Shown here: piece by piece, positions 57,578 through 63,792 of the stretch
Layout: each line of letters begins with the position of its first letter
Numbering within the stretch: position 1 is the first letter of the stretch
Notes under the pieces: generated by a model
Told to the model about the DNA's origin: nothing
The model's input: only the letters and a program-made list of their open reading frames with translations
Database searches by the model: none
Position numbers and translations under genes: made by a program
Assembly: GCF_034424315.1 (NCBI RefSeq)
Contig: NZ_CP139972.1
Span: 7,386,501-7,450,500, forward strand
DNA: 64,000 nt
From: Chitinophaga sancti
GTDB taxonomy: Bacteria > Bacteroidota > Bacteroidia > Chitinophagales > Chitinophagaceae
Direction of reading: 5' to 3'

Positions 57578-57818
57578 ACGATGTATTTTAGATCGTTAGG
57601 GAAGTGAAATTACAAATAGTTTAATTGTATTATATAAAAACTGTGCCAATTGGGGGCAGTTGGTGCTTTTGAGCGTTAACTACTTGATAATTAATGATAA
57701 AAATCCAGAACGTATAAATAATTTTTGTTTGTCTATTTGATTGTATTTCTTGATGGTTTAGATTTTTTTTTGATTTTATTACAGTTTTTTTCCTAATTTG
57801 GTGCCGTCAATCATAGGG

Positions 57819-57832
57819 TCCGGGCTTCCGGA
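57819..57832 (+). other. Small hairpin before the first 33-nt repeat
   Basis: TCCGG and CCGGA form a 5-bp stem around GCTT, ending 7 bp before the first 33-nt repeat. It mirrors the hairpin that precedes the second repeat. The stretch 57578-57818 is AT-rich and shows nothing I can name. Confidence 0.4.
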
Positions 57833-57839
57833 ATGACTA

Positions 57840-57872
57840 CTTAAACCGCAACTCGCATACTGTTTTTGGGCC
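57840..57872 (+). repeat. 33-nt direct repeat, copy 1 (upstream of sphingolipid operon)
   Basis: The copy begins CTTAAACCGCAACTCGCATA and ends TTTTTGGGCC. It is 31/33 identical to copy 2 (57966-57998), which starts 126 bp downstream. The 23-base first part is identical in both. Both copies are in the same orientation and neither lies in a credible ORF. Confidence 0.85.
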
Positions 57873-57939
57873 ACCAAATTATGACATTGTTTGACGATAA
57901 CAAGTCACCGTTTTGTTTTCAAACATAGTTAAATATTAA

Positions 57940-57963
57940 CTGTTTACGATTTTTCGTGAACAG
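57940..57963 (+). other. Hairpin before the second 33-nt repeat
   Basis: CTGTTTACGA (57940-57949) and TCGTGAACAG (57954-57963) form a 10-bp stem (one G-U pair) with a TTTT loop. It ends 2 bp before copy 2. A shorter palindrome, GTTAA-ATA-TTAAC, precedes it (57928-57940). Confidence 0.55.
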
Positions 57964-57965
57964 CG

Positions 57966-57998
57966 CTTAAACCGCAACTCGCATACTGCTTTTGGACC
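57966..57998 (+). repeat. 33-nt direct repeat, copy 2 (upstream of sphingolipid operon)
   Basis: This is the second copy, differing from copy 1 at two positions (C for T after CATACTG, and A for G near the end). A run of T (TTTTTTTT at about 57999-58006) follows directly. It lies 162 bp before the serine palmitoyltransferase start. Confidence 0.85.
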
Positions 57999-58072
57999 TT
58001 TTTTTTAACGCTGCATTCAGTGGTGTGGTACTGGCTTTTCAGTCTGTTATCGCAGAAATTAAATACTGTCAA

Positions 58073-58101
58073 TTATGATCTGAAAAAGGTGCAGATCATA
58101 A
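58073..58101 (+). other. Perfect hairpin in the sphingolipid operon leader
   Basis: TTATGATCTG (58073-58082) and CAGATCATAA (58092-58101) form a perfect 10-bp stem with a 9-base loop, 59 bp before the ATG at 58161. No T-tract follows, so it is more likely an operator palindrome or a leader RNA hairpin than a terminator. Confidence 0.55.
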
Positions 58102-58151
58102 GGCATGGTATCTGAAATTGCACAGGTATCGTGTTATAACAACCGATTTAG

Positions 58152-59387
<1,236 letters not shown>

Positions 59388-59414: not shown

Positions 59415-60593
59415 ATGGACACTATACAGACACCTTCCGTTTCCGCCACAACCACTGTAGTCAGAGGAAGCGCACCTGTTATCGAACAGGTGAGCACAAA
59501 ACAGCAAATGAAACTGTTCATCGACTTCCCGCATGACCTATACAGCAATGATCCGCTTTACGTGCCCGAGTTGTTTATAGCACAACGCGACCTTTTAACA
59601 CCGGGCAAACATCCTTTCCACGAACATTCAGAACTACAACTGTTTCTCGCTTTACGTGACAAAAAAGTAGTTGGCCGTATAGCCGCTATCAACAATCGCA
59701 ATCACAATGCCTTTAATGGCACCAACGATGGTTTCTTTGGCTTTTTCGAATGCATTCCTGATCTGACAGTGAGCAATGCCCTGTTCGATGCAGCAGCAGA
59801 ATGGCTGAAGAAGCAGGGTTTATCGACCATCATTGGACCGGTGAATTTTTCTACTAACGAAACCTGTGGTTTACTGATCGAGGGATTTGACAGTTCACCT
59901 GTGGTGATGATGACCTATAATCCTCCCTATTACATAGAGCTGATTAAGGCTGCTGAGATGACGGTAAACGTGACACTGATTGCATGGCAGGTAACTGCCG
60001 AGGCAGTAGAAGATAAGCCATTGCGTATGATGCAGATGCTGGAGAACAGACTCGCCCAGCGGAATATTGTCATACGCAAAATAAACCTGAAGAAGTTCGA
60101 CGAAGAAGTAGTGAAGATCAGGGAGGTTTATAATAAAGCGTGGGACAAGAATTTTGGATTCGTGCCCATGACAGACAATGAGTTCGCGTATCTGGCAAAG
60201 GACCTGAAATTAATAATGGATCCTGATTTATGTATCGTAGCAGAAAAGGAAGGACAAATAATAGGTTTTTCCCTGTGTATTCCAGATTTGAACAAGGTAC
60301 TGATCAAGGTTCGCAGAGGACGGTTATTGCCTACCGGTCTTTTCAAAATCCTGCTGGGCAAGAGCAAAATCAAGGGGGTACGTGTAATAGCATTGGGGGT
60401 ATTGGAGCCATTCCGTAAGCTGGGTGTGGAAGCTGTATTCTATGGCCGTGTTATCAAAGAAGGCCGCAGGAAAGGTATTAATGTGGCAGAAGCCTCCTGG
60501 ATCCTTGAACAAAATGACCTTATGAACAGCGCGATCCAGGCTGTAAATGGGGTACCATACAAGCGATACAGGATTTACGAGAAAGCGATATGA
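59415..60593 (+). CDS. GNAT-fold acyltransferase, candidate ceramide synthase
   Basis: The protein has 392 residues, soluble. An N-terminal domain (MKLFIDFPHDLYSNDPLYVP, then GRIAAINNRNHN) and a C-terminal GNAT-like domain (LCIVAEKEGQIIGFSLCIPD, then GVRVIALGVLEPFRKLGVEA) are visible. The GPVNFSTNETCGLLIEGF segment is a strong family mark in Bacteroidota. In Caulobacter the bacterial ceramide synthase is also annotated as a GNAT protein next to Spt; that is recalled knowledge. Here it follows spt by 27 bp and overlaps the reductase gene by 4 bp, so N-acylation of the sphingoid base is the likely reaction. Not proven by sequence alone. Confidence 0.75.
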   Translation: MDTIQTPSVSATTTVVRGSAPVIEQVSTKQQMKLFIDFPHDLYSNDPLYVPELFIAQRDLLTPGKHPFHEHSELQLFLALRDKKVVGRIAAINNRNHNAFNGTNDGFFGFFECIPDLTVSNALFDAAAEWLKKQGLSTIIGPVNFSTNETCGLLIEGFDSSPVVMMTYNPPYYIELIKAAEMTVNVTLIAWQVTAEAVEDKPLRMMQMLENRLAQRNIVIRKINLKKFDEEVVKIREVYNKAWDKNFGFVPMTDNEFAYLAKDLKLIMDPDLCIVAEKEGQIIGFSLCIPDLNKVLIKVRRGRLLPTGLFKILLGKSKIKGVRVIALGVLEPFRKLGVEAVFYGRVIKEGRRKGINVAEASWILEQNDLMNSAIQAVNGVPYKRYRIYEKAI

Positions 60594-61570
60594 GGAAAGT
60601 ATTGATTACAGGTGCAAGCGGATTTCTGGGCTTCCATTTAATCGAAGCCGCGCTGGCAGAGGGAATGGAAGTGCACGCAGGAGTAAGGCCCTCCAGTGAT
60701 GTTGCGCATTTGCAACATTTGGAGATCTCTTTCGTGAACCTTGATTTTCGCGATGTGTCTGGCATGGCAGCCTTGCTACAGGAGCAACAATACACAGACA
60801 TTATTCATGCTGCAGGTGCCACCCGTGCAAAAAATGAGGCAGCTTTCAATGAGATTAATGCAGGATACACTGAGAATCTTCTGAAAGCGATCGTACAATC
60901 TGGTATTGAACTGAACAGGTTCGTTTATTTCAGTAGTCTGGCAGCAGTAGGGCCAAAAGCTTATGAAGCGGAATGGCCGGAGCAGGACGAGGTATCACCC
61001 GCTCCCGTGACGTTGTATGGCAAGAGTAAGTTGCTGGCAGAACAATTGTTGAAGCAATACGCCCGGGTTCCCTGGGTCGTATTGCGGCCTACGGCCATCT
61101 ACGGCCCAAGGGACAAGGACCTGTTCGTATTGTTCAAAACTTATGGCTGGCGATTGGAGCCGTATATGGGAAAGGGGCCCCAGCAGCTGAGTTTTGTTTA
61201 TGTAAAAGATGTGGCACAGGCTGCCATTCGCGCATTAAACGGACAATTTATACATACCTGTTATGATGTTTCTGACGGTAACAGTTATGACCGTTATGCA
61301 TTAGCCAAAGTGACAAAGGGTTTGTTAGGCATCAGGACATTACGTATTCACATGCCATTAACATTGATCCGGTGGATAGCCGGAATAGCCGAAGCAACAA
61401 GTAAGGGCATGCCGTTGTTAAATAGGGACCGGTTAAATGAGTTAACTGCCCAAAACTGGAACTGTAGCATAATACGTATACAAAGAGAACTTGGATACCA
61501 ACCTGACTTCACACTTGAAAAAGGGATGAGGGAGACCCTGGATTGGTATACCGGGAACCACTGGTTATAA
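60590..61570 (+). CDS. NAD-dependent epimerase/dehydratase, candidate 3-ketosphinganine/ceramide reductase (CerR-like)
   Basis: The protein has 326 residues, extended SDR. The nucleotide motif is LITGASGFLGFHLIEAALAE (residues 5-24). The active site shows YFSSLAAVGP and the YxxxK in TLYGKSKLLAEQ. VVLRPTAIYGPRDKDLF is the usual substrate-side segment. In Caulobacter a similar 'epimerase' (CerR) reduces the keto group in ceramide synthesis. The context (spt and GNAT immediately upstream, 4-bp overlap) supports this. Sugar epimerase activity is the main alternative but has no context here. Confidence 0.75.
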   Translation: MRKVLITGASGFLGFHLIEAALAEGMEVHAGVRPSSDVAHLQHLEISFVNLDFRDVSGMAALLQEQQYTDIIHAAGATRAKNEAAFNEINAGYTENLLKAIVQSGIELNRFVYFSSLAAVGPKAYEAEWPEQDEVSPAPVTLYGKSKLLAEQLLKQYARVPWVVLRPTAIYGPRDKDLFVLFKTYGWRLEPYMGKGPQQLSFVYVKDVAQAAIRALNGQFIHTCYDVSDGNSYDRYALAKVTKGLLGIRTLRIHMPLTLIRWIAGIAEATSKGMPLLNRDRLNELTAQNWNCSIIRIQRELGYQPDFTLEKGMRETLDWYTGNHWL

Positions 61571-61611
61571 CAAACGTTCACTAATTGAAAAACAAAGAGG
61601 CAAAAGATTTT

Positions 61612-62937
61612 ATGAAACATCAAATTAAAGACGCAAATGGGAAGCTGGGAGTACTGATGCCAGGCCTTGGCGCTGTAGCAACCACTTTCATAGCAGGAGT
61701 CTTATCTGTGACCAAGGGCTTTTCTAAGCCAATCGGGTCAGTGACACAAATGGGGCATATTCGTCTGGGTAAGAGAACAGACAATAAGAATCCATTGATT
61801 AAAGACTTTGTTCCCCTGGCAAAGCTGGAAGATATTGTATTCGGCGGTTGGGATGTTTATGCTGATAACGTGTATACAGCAGCGGTAAAAGCTGAAGTAT
61901 TGGACAGATTTCAGATAGAAGCAATAAAACCCGAACTGGAAGCCATCGTACCGATGAAAGCAGCTTTTGACAAAAACTTTGTTAAAAACCTGGATGGCAC
62001 ACATGTAAAGGATTTTAAAACGCGTTATGATCTGGCGCAGATGGTGATGGAAGACATTAAAACCTTCCAGGAGAAGAATAAGGTAGAACGTGTGGTAATG
62101 GTATGGTGTGGTTCTACAGAAATTTATCATCAGGCAGCAGATGTACATAATTCATTGGCAGCATTTGAGCAGGGATTGAGAGATAATGATGCGAGGATTG
62201 CCCCAAGTATGATTTATGCGTATGCGGCACTGAAGTTGGGCGTACCTTTTGCGAACGGTGCACCTAACCTGACCTGCGATATTCCGGCATTGGTTGAGCT
62301 GGCTCACCAGACAAAAACACCGATTGCAGGTAAAGACTTCAAGACTGGTCAGACCCTGATGAAGACAATTCTTGCACCGGGTCTGCAGGCAAGGGCCCTG
62401 GGCATGGAGGGCTGGTTTAGCACAAATATCCTCGGAAACCGCGATGGATGGGTGTTAGATGATCCTGATAACTTCAAAACCAAGGAAGTTTCCAAGCTTG
62501 GCGTTTTGGAAGATATTTTAAGTCCGGAAGAATATCCTGATCTTTACGGTGACCTTTACCACAAAATCCGTATTAACTATTATCCGCCGCGCAAGGATAA
62601 TAAGGAAAGCTGGGATAACATTGACATCTTCGGCTGGTTAGGGTATAAAATGCAGATTAAAGTAAACTTCCTGTGCCGTGATTCAATTCTGGCCGCACCG
62701 ATTGTACTGGACCTCGCATTATTTATTGACTTTGCTAAGCGTGCAGGCATGAGCGGCATTCAGGAATGGCTTTCATTCTACCTGAAATCGCCTCAAACTG
62801 CTCCTGGCTTACGTCCTGAACATGATATTTTCAAACAGCTTATCAAGCTGCAAAATACCTTGCGCTACCTGATGGGTGAGGATCTGATCACGCATCTGGG
62901 ATTGGACTATTACGAAGGAATTTTTGATACTGAATGA
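61612..62937 (+). CDS. ino1: Myo-inositol-1-phosphate synthase
   Basis: The protein has 441 residues from ATG 61612; a TTG at 61585 would add nine residues. It has the glycine-rich NAD site KLGVLMPGLGAVATTFIAGV (about residues 11-30) and the family segments VFGGWDVYADNVYTAAVKAE, ASMIYAYAALKLGVPFANGA-like PSMIYAYAALKLGVPFANGA and AGKDFKTGQTLMKTILAPGL. DSILAAPIVLDLALFIDFAK lies near the end. It converts glucose-6-phosphate to inositol-phosphate, the head-group precursor of inositol lipids. Its place behind the ceramide genes suggests inositol phosphorylceramide or phosphatidylinositol-type products, as known in Bacteroides. Start supported by the match to the family N-terminus. Confidence 0.92.
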   Translation: MKHQIKDANGKLGVLMPGLGAVATTFIAGVLSVTKGFSKPIGSVTQMGHIRLGKRTDNKNPLIKDFVPLAKLEDIVFGGWDVYADNVYTAAVKAEVLDRFQIEAIKPELEAIVPMKAAFDKNFVKNLDGTHVKDFKTRYDLAQMVMEDIKTFQEKNKVERVVMVWCGSTEIYHQAADVHNSLAAFEQGLRDNDARIAPSMIYAYAALKLGVPFANGAPNLTCDIPALVELAHQTKTPIAGKDFKTGQTLMKTILAPGLQARALGMEGWFSTNILGNRDGWVLDDPDNFKTKEVSKLGVLEDILSPEEYPDLYGDLYHKIRINYYPPRKDNKESWDNIDIFGWLGYKMQIKVNFLCRDSILAAPIVLDLALFIDFAKRAGMSGIQEWLSFYLKSPQTAPGLRPEHDIFKQLIKLQNTLRYLMGEDLITHLGLDYYEGIFDTE

Positions 62938-63386
62938 TAAGAATACACAAATTGATCGCTACCAGCCTGGGCATTGGCTATATAGGCAAGGGCGGAGGAA
63001 CGGTTGCAGCCGCAGTCGCCGCACTGGTTTGGTACCTTGTACTGGCTGGTAGCAATCCTGCCAACTTTTGGCCATTACTTTTAACAGTGGCAATCACATT
63101 ATTAGGCATCTGGTCTGGCACGGAAGTAGAACCCTACTGGGGCAAAGACGACAAGAAAGTCGTGATCGACGAGGTTGCAGGGATGATGATAAGCGTGCTG
63201 TTCGTACCTGTCACCCCGGCATACATATTGGCTGGTTTGGTTTTATTTCGTTTTTTTGATATAGTAAAACCTTTGTATATCAGGCGCACAGAGGCTCTTC
63301 CGGGCGGTGTAGGCGTAATGATGGACGATATTGTTGCGGGGATCTATTCCAATATATTGTTGCAACTGGTAATACATTTGATATAG
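62934..63386 (+). CDS. pgpA: PgpA-like phosphatidylglycerophosphatase A
   Basis: The protein has 150 residues and four hydrophobic segments. The family pattern is clear: LIATSLGIGYIGKGGGTVAA, KKVVIDEVAGMMISVLFVP, FRFFDIVKPLYIRRTEALPG and GVGVMMDDIVAGIYSN. It is a membrane phosphatase that removes phosphate from phosphatidylglycerol phosphate or, in the inositol-lipid loci of Bacteroides, from a phosphorylated inositol lipid. The 4-bp overlap with the inositol synthase gene favours the second role here. This is inference. Confidence 0.88.
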   Translation: MIRIHKLIATSLGIGYIGKGGGTVAAAVAALVWYLVLAGSNPANFWPLLLTVAITLLGIWSGTEVEPYWGKDDKKVVIDEVAGMMISVLFVPVTPAYILAGLVLFRFFDIVKPLYIRRTEALPGGVGVMMDDIVAGIYSNILLQLVIHLI

Positions 63387-63423
63387 AGTTATTGGGTACG
63401 CGTTTTGCAGAATTGTAGACCAT

Positions 63424-63792
63424 ATGCGTTTTATTAAAGCACAAGCTTCGGCACTGGTGGCGACCGGAGTTCAATTTATAGTATCCTTTTTACTATTACA
63501 TACATGGGAGGGATATGGTGTAGCTGCCAATGTGACAGGAGTGATCTGTGGAGGTATTACCAACTTTATAATAAACAGAAGGTGGGTATACCAAAAAGGG
63601 AACGACACATGGAACTGGCAAGCTATGAAATATATCATTGTCTGGTTCGGAAACCTGATAGTCAATACTACCTGCTTTTGGGTATTGGCAAATTATACCG
63701 CTATTGATCAGCGTGTGGCTATGGTCATGGCATCGGTTATCACCGCCGTCGGGTATAACTACGGAATGCAAAAGCGGTTTGTTTTTAAATGA
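63424..63792 (+). CDS. GtrA-family membrane protein
   Basis: The protein has 122 residues with four membrane helices. GtrA motifs are MRFIKAQASALVATGVQFIV, GVICGGITNFIINRRWVYQK and AVGYNYGMQKRFVFK at the end. Family members help move undecaprenyl-phosphate-linked glucose or otherwise modify surface polysaccharides or lipids. In this operon it may act on a glycosylated or inositol lipid. It lies 37 bp after pgpA and 9 bp before the next gene. Confidence 0.88.
   Translation: MRFIKAQASALVATGVQFIVSFLLLHTWEGYGVAANVTGVICGGITNFIINRRWVYQKGNDTWNWQAMKYIIVWFGNLIVNTTCFWVLANYTAIDQRVAMVMASVITAVGYNYGMQKRFVFK

Follow-up and report, generated by a model that had tools for sequence, protein, structure and literature searches.

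What do two nearly identical copies of a 33-nt sequence do in the long gap in front of the serine palmitoyltransferase gene (spt) of Chitinophaga sancti? The window, by which we mean the whole 64,000-nt stretch analyzed here, is part of an 8.4-Mb genome assembled as one contig (G000). A first-pass annotation had described two same-strand copies preceded by hairpins, with a further hairpin closer to the start codon. Both copies were found, identical at 31 of 33 positions (94%) with a start-to-start distance of 126 bp, and all three hairpins could be read from the sequence (Table 1). The assignment of the gene as spt was also correct, its product matching NF047600 above the cut-off; the closest solved chains are 8guh and 3a2b.

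Table 1. Features of the spt locus, in window positions.
Feature	Position	Strand	Basis
Start of the divergent gene, other boundary of the spt upstream gap	57577		
Promoter-like block: TTTG (57769-57772), 21 nt, TAATTTGG (57794-57801)	57769..57801	+	
Hairpin preceding copy 1, TCCGG-GCTT-CCGGA	57819..57832	+	read from sequence
First 33-nt copy, with its core TTAAACCGCAACTCGCATACTG at 57841-57862; site 1 of the proposed antisense docking pair	57840..57872	+	
Hairpin preceding copy 2, CTGTTTACGA-TTTT-TCGTGAACAG, 10 pairs, one of them G-U	57940..57963	+	sequence
Second 33-nt copy, with its core at 57967-57988; site 2 of the proposed antisense docking pair	57966..57998	+	
Perfect 10-pair hairpin in the 3' part of the leader, TTATGATCTG-N9-CAGATCATAA	58073..58101	+	sequence; in the clade's predicted folds
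Second stem-loop, 13 pairs including several G-U, ending about 25 nt upstream of the start codon	58102..58135	+	predicted fold
spt, serine palmitoyltransferase, 408 aa, ATG at 58161	58161..59387	+	NF047600, 690.5 bits (cut-off 640)
Downstream genes in the same direction: GNAT-like, SDR-like, inositol-1-phosphate synthase, PgpA-like, GtrA-like	59415..63792	+	

The promoter-like block resembles the Bacteroidota -33/-7 promoter as given in the part of the source available to us, TTTG/TANNTTTG plus T at -12 and G at -5 (PMC6847099), from which it departs at one place in the -7 box. It also recalls the SM5 box of F. psychrophilum, TAnnTTGY in the accessible part of that study, again with one departure (PMC9723704). 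A BLAST DNA search matched the stretch 57766-57812 in most other clades, and CTAATTTGGTGCC is present at 0-1 mismatch in 21 of 21 spt leaders. The block predicts a transcript start near 57806, and because it is conserved and precedes the copies, these probably lie within an spt leader of about 355 nt; the leaders of F. psychrophilum, for comparison, average 65 nt and have a median of 24. No terminator-like site was found on either strand between 57700 and 58200. One clade (leaders L045, L049-L052, L054, L056 and L064) has a second promoter-like sequence, TAAATTTG, about 90 nt upstream of the start codon. In the same leaders a hairpin follows the last copy, and its loop, mostly GTATG or GTATGC, is by eye complementary to GCATAC of that copy; this complementarity fails in L023.

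The 22-nt core of the unit, with up to 3 mismatches, occurs in the C. sancti genome at the two spt copies only (reversed control, 0), and the repeats are thus not generic sequences scattered over the chromosome. We searched 79 Chitinophaga genomes, one per species and related by descent, and found the core in 22 of them at the same threshold (4 hits for the reversed control). It lies upstream of spt in 21 of these 22; the exception, G314 (L019), has a site with 3 mismatches, no adjoining spt and no close Spt. The genomes with a close Spt (76-100% identity) are the identical set of 21, while the four with a divergent Spt (72-73%) all lack the core pattern and the remaining 54 have weaker Spt relatives only (E 2e-80 or worse). 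The first-pass proposal of a tandem cis-regulatory module tied to spt, for which conservation in front of spt homologues had been suggested as a check, is therefore supported by 21 of 21 close-Spt Chitinophaga genomes, although, as the species share descent, this count represents one locus kept over divergence and not 21 cases. Confinement to two places in the C. sancti genome, together with retention upstream of spt in relatives, is more than chance. The restriction of close or divergent Spt to just 25 of the 79 genomes suggests repeated loss or gain of sphingolipid synthesis in the genus.

Eighteen of the leaders contain two copies and three contain three, 45 in total, with start-to-start spacings of about 44-128 bp. 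The total excludes a second, identical locus in G308, where spt is found twice with equal scores (G308:C22 and G308:C23) and was counted once; this genome has an estimated contamination of 7%, and the doubling is perhaps due to a mixed assembly. The last copy is nearly invariant, though Spt falls to 76-80% identity between clades and much of the leader does not align. In earlier copies a head resembling CTTARACCRCAAC is retained, then a spacer and CTGTT; one of them, in L046, lacks a clear tail. Between CAAC and CTG there are 7 nt in 34 copies, 8 in nine and 6 in one; no tail was found in the remaining one.

Exact 18-mer matches were obtained in public contigs named C. pinensis YS-16, C. silvisoli, Chitinophaga sp. 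YR627 and [Flexibacter] sp. ATCC 35208. A Porphyrobacter bin and a Beijerinckiaceae bin each had one further match, at loci without a detected spt gene. Outside Chitinophaga the core was seen in four genomes with 3 mismatches each, against six hits of the reversed control, which is chance level. A sequence-only profile built from 30 distinct spt units (R1) matched none of 31 further loci, namely 28 spt loci of other genera and three of the four divergent Chitinophaga ones. Seven of the 28 upstream regions from other Chitinophagaceae carry a palindrome, GACCAAAATACG-TTTTAGTC (L083, L085, L088, L095, L096, L106 and L108), at about -54 to -76 in six of them and at -394 in L096. In L099 and L104 a TetR-like ORF, recognized by eye, ends upstream of spt, and a TetR-type operator may therefore control spt outside Chitinophaga.

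Is the leader itself a structured, cis-acting RNA? In predicted folds the copies are mostly unpaired, with a mean percentile of 0.84 among the 22-nt windows of their own leader, and 43 of 45 are less paired than the median window. Hairpins precede the copies, but their sequences differ from clade to clade and they show a few double changes within clades; the one before copy 2 has a single G-C to A-U double change in five close relatives. Among the folds listed none is common to all clades, so that in place of the shared, covarying fold of a riboswitch we find local hairpins with occasional double changes. Four pairings noted by eye each fail in some clade: the tail of copy 1 with the head of copy 2, the seed against a hairpin, the loop GUAUGC with GCAUAC, and the repeat with the spt start region. 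No Rfam family matched the leader at its cut-off; two snoRNAs and wcaG appeared far under it. The first-pass option of a duplicated structured RNA, understood as a riboswitch-like element, is not upheld by these results.

A different relation emerged when profile R1 was run over the genus. After the spt copies, 35 of the 41 non-spt matches listed in genomes G294-G325 were sites of one 22-mer, TAAACCTACAACTGTTACACTG. Two of the other six belong by eye to the same class (L191 and L194), one lies at an ORF start (L185), one within an ORF (L193) and one between genes (L196), the sixth being at G302:C1:2048551. In L185 (G315:C5) the motif-like stretch at 1486-1510 overlaps the start of an ORF for a probable membrane protein of 509 aa, a position that could be that of a small-RNA target or could be due to chance. 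With up to 3 mismatches, the 22-mer is found in all 79 Chitinophaga genomes at 1-10 sites each, against three reversed-control hits over the 79. In the rest of the family it is found in 17 of 282 genomes, always with 3 mismatches, against seven reversed-control hits. The C. sancti genome has five exact sites (C1:200239, 2088845, 5321609, 5377726 and 5990478) and two with 2-3 mismatches, one within a long ORF (L171) and one that we regard as chance (L172). Searches of this genome with looser patterns of the spt motif, aimed at a regulon, returned the spt copies, the sites just listed and hits that we took for chance (12 against 5 reversed, and 12 against 2). In one divergent-spt genome the element stands at 1510-1531 of L197 (G315:C2:347150-351300), after a gene that looks TetR-like by eye and about 2.5 kb upstream of spt.

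Where does this element lie? We compared 35 exact loci, consisting of the best match of each of 30 genomes (L136-L165) and the five C. sancti sites. In 35 of 35 the nearest upstream ORF is on the same strand as the reverse complement of the motif, which gives the element a fixed orientation in the sense RNA, although many of the loci are orthologous and they do not amount to 35 independent cases. The stop codon is 14-49 nt away in 34 loci and 190 nt away in one, and in none of the 35 does the element fall within an ORF of at least 120 aa. In the sense RNA the stop codon is followed, usually after 14-49 nt, by a hairpin (for example GUUAC-UAACAGU-GUAAC), then by AGUUGUAGGUUUA, 6-8 nt and a terminator hairpin, after which a T-rich tail is present in 34 of 35 loci; the terminator scan detected a terminator in L168. 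Placement after a stop codon and ending at an intrinsic terminator are what a 3'-UTR-derived trans-acting RNA would show. The five C. sancti hosts are genes for an AraC-type regulator, a LuxR-type response regulator, an MFS transporter and two AcrB-type pumps; judged from ORF ends only, hosts in other genomes are RND-like, EmrB-like, ABC-2-like, MarR-like and TetR-like.

The stem of the first hairpin scores at least 4.5 in 33 of 38 elements; over 300 shuffles the corresponding number averages 8.5 and never exceeds 17. The 3' arm showed no compensatory change (own 4.55, foreign 4.74), and covariation found no support in a column test whose structure string fitted the alignment columns poorly. 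The stem recurs and changes in its 3' arm go uncompensated, and the hairpin is accordingly supported by recurrence and not by covariation. Folding predictions for 15 elements leave GUUGUAGGUUUA wholly or partly unpaired, depending on the flanks. The element also contains a TGTTACA...TGTAACA dyad, with about 4-7 nt between the arms in most cases. In eight loci searched, no Rfam family matched at cut-off, and the Rfam version used may not contain FopS. Hits under cut-off occurred only in L168 (L20_leader, E 0.0015, 26.1 bits against a cut-off of 58.7; CsrC, CyaR, rli61 and BTnc231), and we took them for terminator-like likeness.

Since the element reads as the reverse complement in the sense RNA of its gene, the spt copies are antisense to it. 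The head of a copy, UUAAACC-R-CAACU, is complementary to AGUUG-U(A)-GGUUUA of the element, and the tail, ACUGUU, to the hairpin loop UAACAGU. The stem has no counterpart in the copies, and the spacer of variable length stands opposite it. This antisense relation was not visible to the first-pass reader, whose interpretation is supported as regards a tandem module linked to spt and not supported as regards structured-RNA copies.

We quantified the complementarity in several ways. The nearest to unbiased is a shuffle test of six elements, although these were chosen from profile hits and their neighbours; the pairing tests that follow it are not independent of how the element was discovered. The six elements score 9.6-16.8 bits against the spt profile, and between 0 and 4 of 200,000 shuffles of matched composition score as high. 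With the C. sancti MFS element, each of the 45 copies pairs at -19.6 to -34.0 kcal/mol, compared with -18.1 for the best of 1295 other leader windows; in C. sancti itself copy 1 gives -28.0 kcal/mol and copy 2 -24.4 kcal/mol. In nine of the 21 genomes the leader was paired with an element of the same genome, which gave -29.7 to -39.0 (z -3.7 to -6.8, 0 of 200 shuffles in each), against -12.2 to -18.8 for the opposite strand of the element. The C. sancti leader beats 45 of 45 control regions, taken upstream of mechanically listed ORFs of the same genome, for four of its five elements, and 1-5 of 300 shuffles reach the leader. For the fifth element (L170) it is reached by five of the 45 regions and 30 of 300 shuffles, so that complementarity to the target is above chance for all C. 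sancti elements but this one. The upstream regions of spt in other Chitinophagaceae (28 regions) reach -13.0 to -21.8 and three divergent Chitinophaga ones -20.1 to -21.9, compared with -25.4 to -34.3 for the 21 leaders; none of the 28 is at the level of the weakest leader. Changes in the heads of the copies are of both kinds, some keeping the pairing (A to G, C to U) and others breaking pairs (copies in L044, L048, L046, L054 and L023), and substitutions alone therefore do not decide.

Calculation establishes the sites, their orientation, their conservation and the complementarity between the spt copies and the 3' element. The explanation we prefer is pairing between RNAs, the spt leader serving as a tandem docking platform, and we give a probability of roughly 0.55 to the proposal that the copies are antisense docking sites for the 3'-UTR RNAs of efflux and regulator mRNAs. 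The leader would be transcribed from the distal promoter, and the 3' ends, as released small RNAs or within their mRNAs, would pair with it in the cell. A seed contact may form between the head UUAAACC-R-CAACU and single-stranded AGUUGUAGGUUUA, and a second one between the tail ACUGUU and the loop UAACAGU, with the spacer opposite the stem. Pairing would then lower or gate spt expression while the pumps are expressed. Because the sites are about 160-320 nt upstream of the start codon, pairing would be less likely to block the start site directly than to act through RNA stability, the folding of the leader or sequestration. More tentatively, at somewhat less than even odds, we picture a genus-wide network in which the 3'-end element reports efflux and regulator expression in trans and the leaders of close spt genes read the signal by two-point contact. 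Since the element is present in 79 of 79 genomes, and 54 of these have neither a close nor a divergent Spt, it must owe its existence mainly to something other than spt; from this presence, the 3' ends are likely the older part and spt a client.

Several observations weigh against docking. All 3' loci come from one genus and many are orthologous, the spt leader is a single locus, the stem of the element is without compensatory support, L170 does no better than five of 45 other upstream regions, and several head changes break pairs. The main rival is a protein-binding site in duplex DNA: one protein would occupy sites close to the 3' ends of efflux and regulator genes and also the reversed, tandem copies that follow the spt promoter, where it would stop or slow RNA polymerase. 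The blocks TTAAACC, CAACT and ACTG kept at both kinds of place, the closeness of the tandem copies to the promoter, as in an operator, and the dyad of the 3' element all suit such a protein. We nevertheless consider it unlikely, because an operator would combine fixed geometry with freedom of orientation, whereas here the orientation is fixed at all 35 loci and distances vary, be it the 6-8 nt between CAAC and CTG, the 4-7 nt between most dyad arms or the 44-128 bp between copies. A DNA-binding protein explains the shared blocks but explains fixed orientation, loop geometry and loose spacing less well. RNA pairing, which we favour, accounts for the pattern of conserved and variable bases.

The same complementarity would serve if the leader were the acting RNA, its fragments targeting the 3' ends of efflux and regulator mRNAs in the manner of a sponge or small RNA and altering the stability of these mRNAs. 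A long leader with multiple sites suits a sponge, but the 3' element is kept in the 54 genomes that have neither a close nor a divergent Spt, and the stretch 57700-58200 offers no terminator-like site to release a short leader RNA, which makes this reading improbable. Still less probable is a cis-acting leader, riboswitch-like or protein-binding, that senses a sphingolipid-related signal and resembles the 3' element through common descent only. It would account for a long, conserved leader restricted to spt and for hairpins with some double changes, and has against it the unpaired copies and the lack of an Rfam match at cut-off, of a fold common to the clades among those listed and of an attenuator-like terminator. 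The least probable reading of all is that inverted 3'-end elements landed in the spt leader, were duplicated and persist as functionless remnants. The order of hairpin and motif in the leader is indeed that of the 3' element read on the opposite strand, but a remnant would hardly stay nearly invariant, as the last copy does, where much of the leader cannot be aligned and Spt is 76-80% identical between clades.

Should the pairing be real, the partner and the very bases that control a sphingolipid operon can be named, and a genus-wide class of 3'-UTR elements common to efflux operons is revealed. The complementarity of the RNAs suggests pairing and, with it, a link between drug-pump expression and membrane sphingolipids, which, if true, would tie sphingolipid membranes to drug efflux without a dedicated small-RNA gene. 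In the literature we searched, nothing was found on this 3' element or on RNA control of bacterial spt.

How does this arrangement compare with known systems? The FopS/GibS small RNAs of Bacteroides thetaiotaomicron, in the part of their description available to us, are multicopy, with several paralogues per genome, and pair with the 5' parts of operon mRNAs without an Hfq-centred system; FopS RNAs have one conserved single-stranded seed followed by an intrinsic terminator, are said to be deposited in Rfam and in one of 14 cases derive from a 3' UTR (PMC11697453). A member of the FopS family would have its own promoter in front of a 65-70-nt RNA. The putative Chitinophaga RNA is likewise multicopy, with a conserved seed before a terminator and a proposed pairing with the 5' part of an operon mRNA. 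Relative to the FopS features described there, it differs in that all 35 sites checked are in 3' UTRs, a hairpin precedes the seed, and its proposed targets occur in tandem, a long way from the start codon. BatR, also of B. thetaiotaomicron, acts on cell-surface genes and the stress response by pairing with 5' regions; it is a single dedicated gene with targets near start codons, and the accessible portion of that report contains no link to efflux 3' ends or tandem sites (PMC10861873). As far as these partial sources go, the mode described for FopS and BatR is covering of the ribosome site, and the distance of the spt sites from the start codon argues against simple cover of this kind; their position clear of the start codon also counts against docking by analogy with those targets. 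With tandem operators and tandem aptamers the spt locus shares repeated, conserved units in or before a leader, but neither a fixed spacing of its copies nor a common fold or Rfam match was found, and the same genomes contain a class of complementary partners.

In enterobacteria, CpxQ and MicL are mRNA 3' ends with a terminator that act in trans on envelope genes. Such RNAs mostly have one parent gene each, whereas the Chitinophaga element is repeated at the ends of several operons; a layout in which one element on many mRNA 3' ends is matched by one leader with tandem antisense sites would be unusual.
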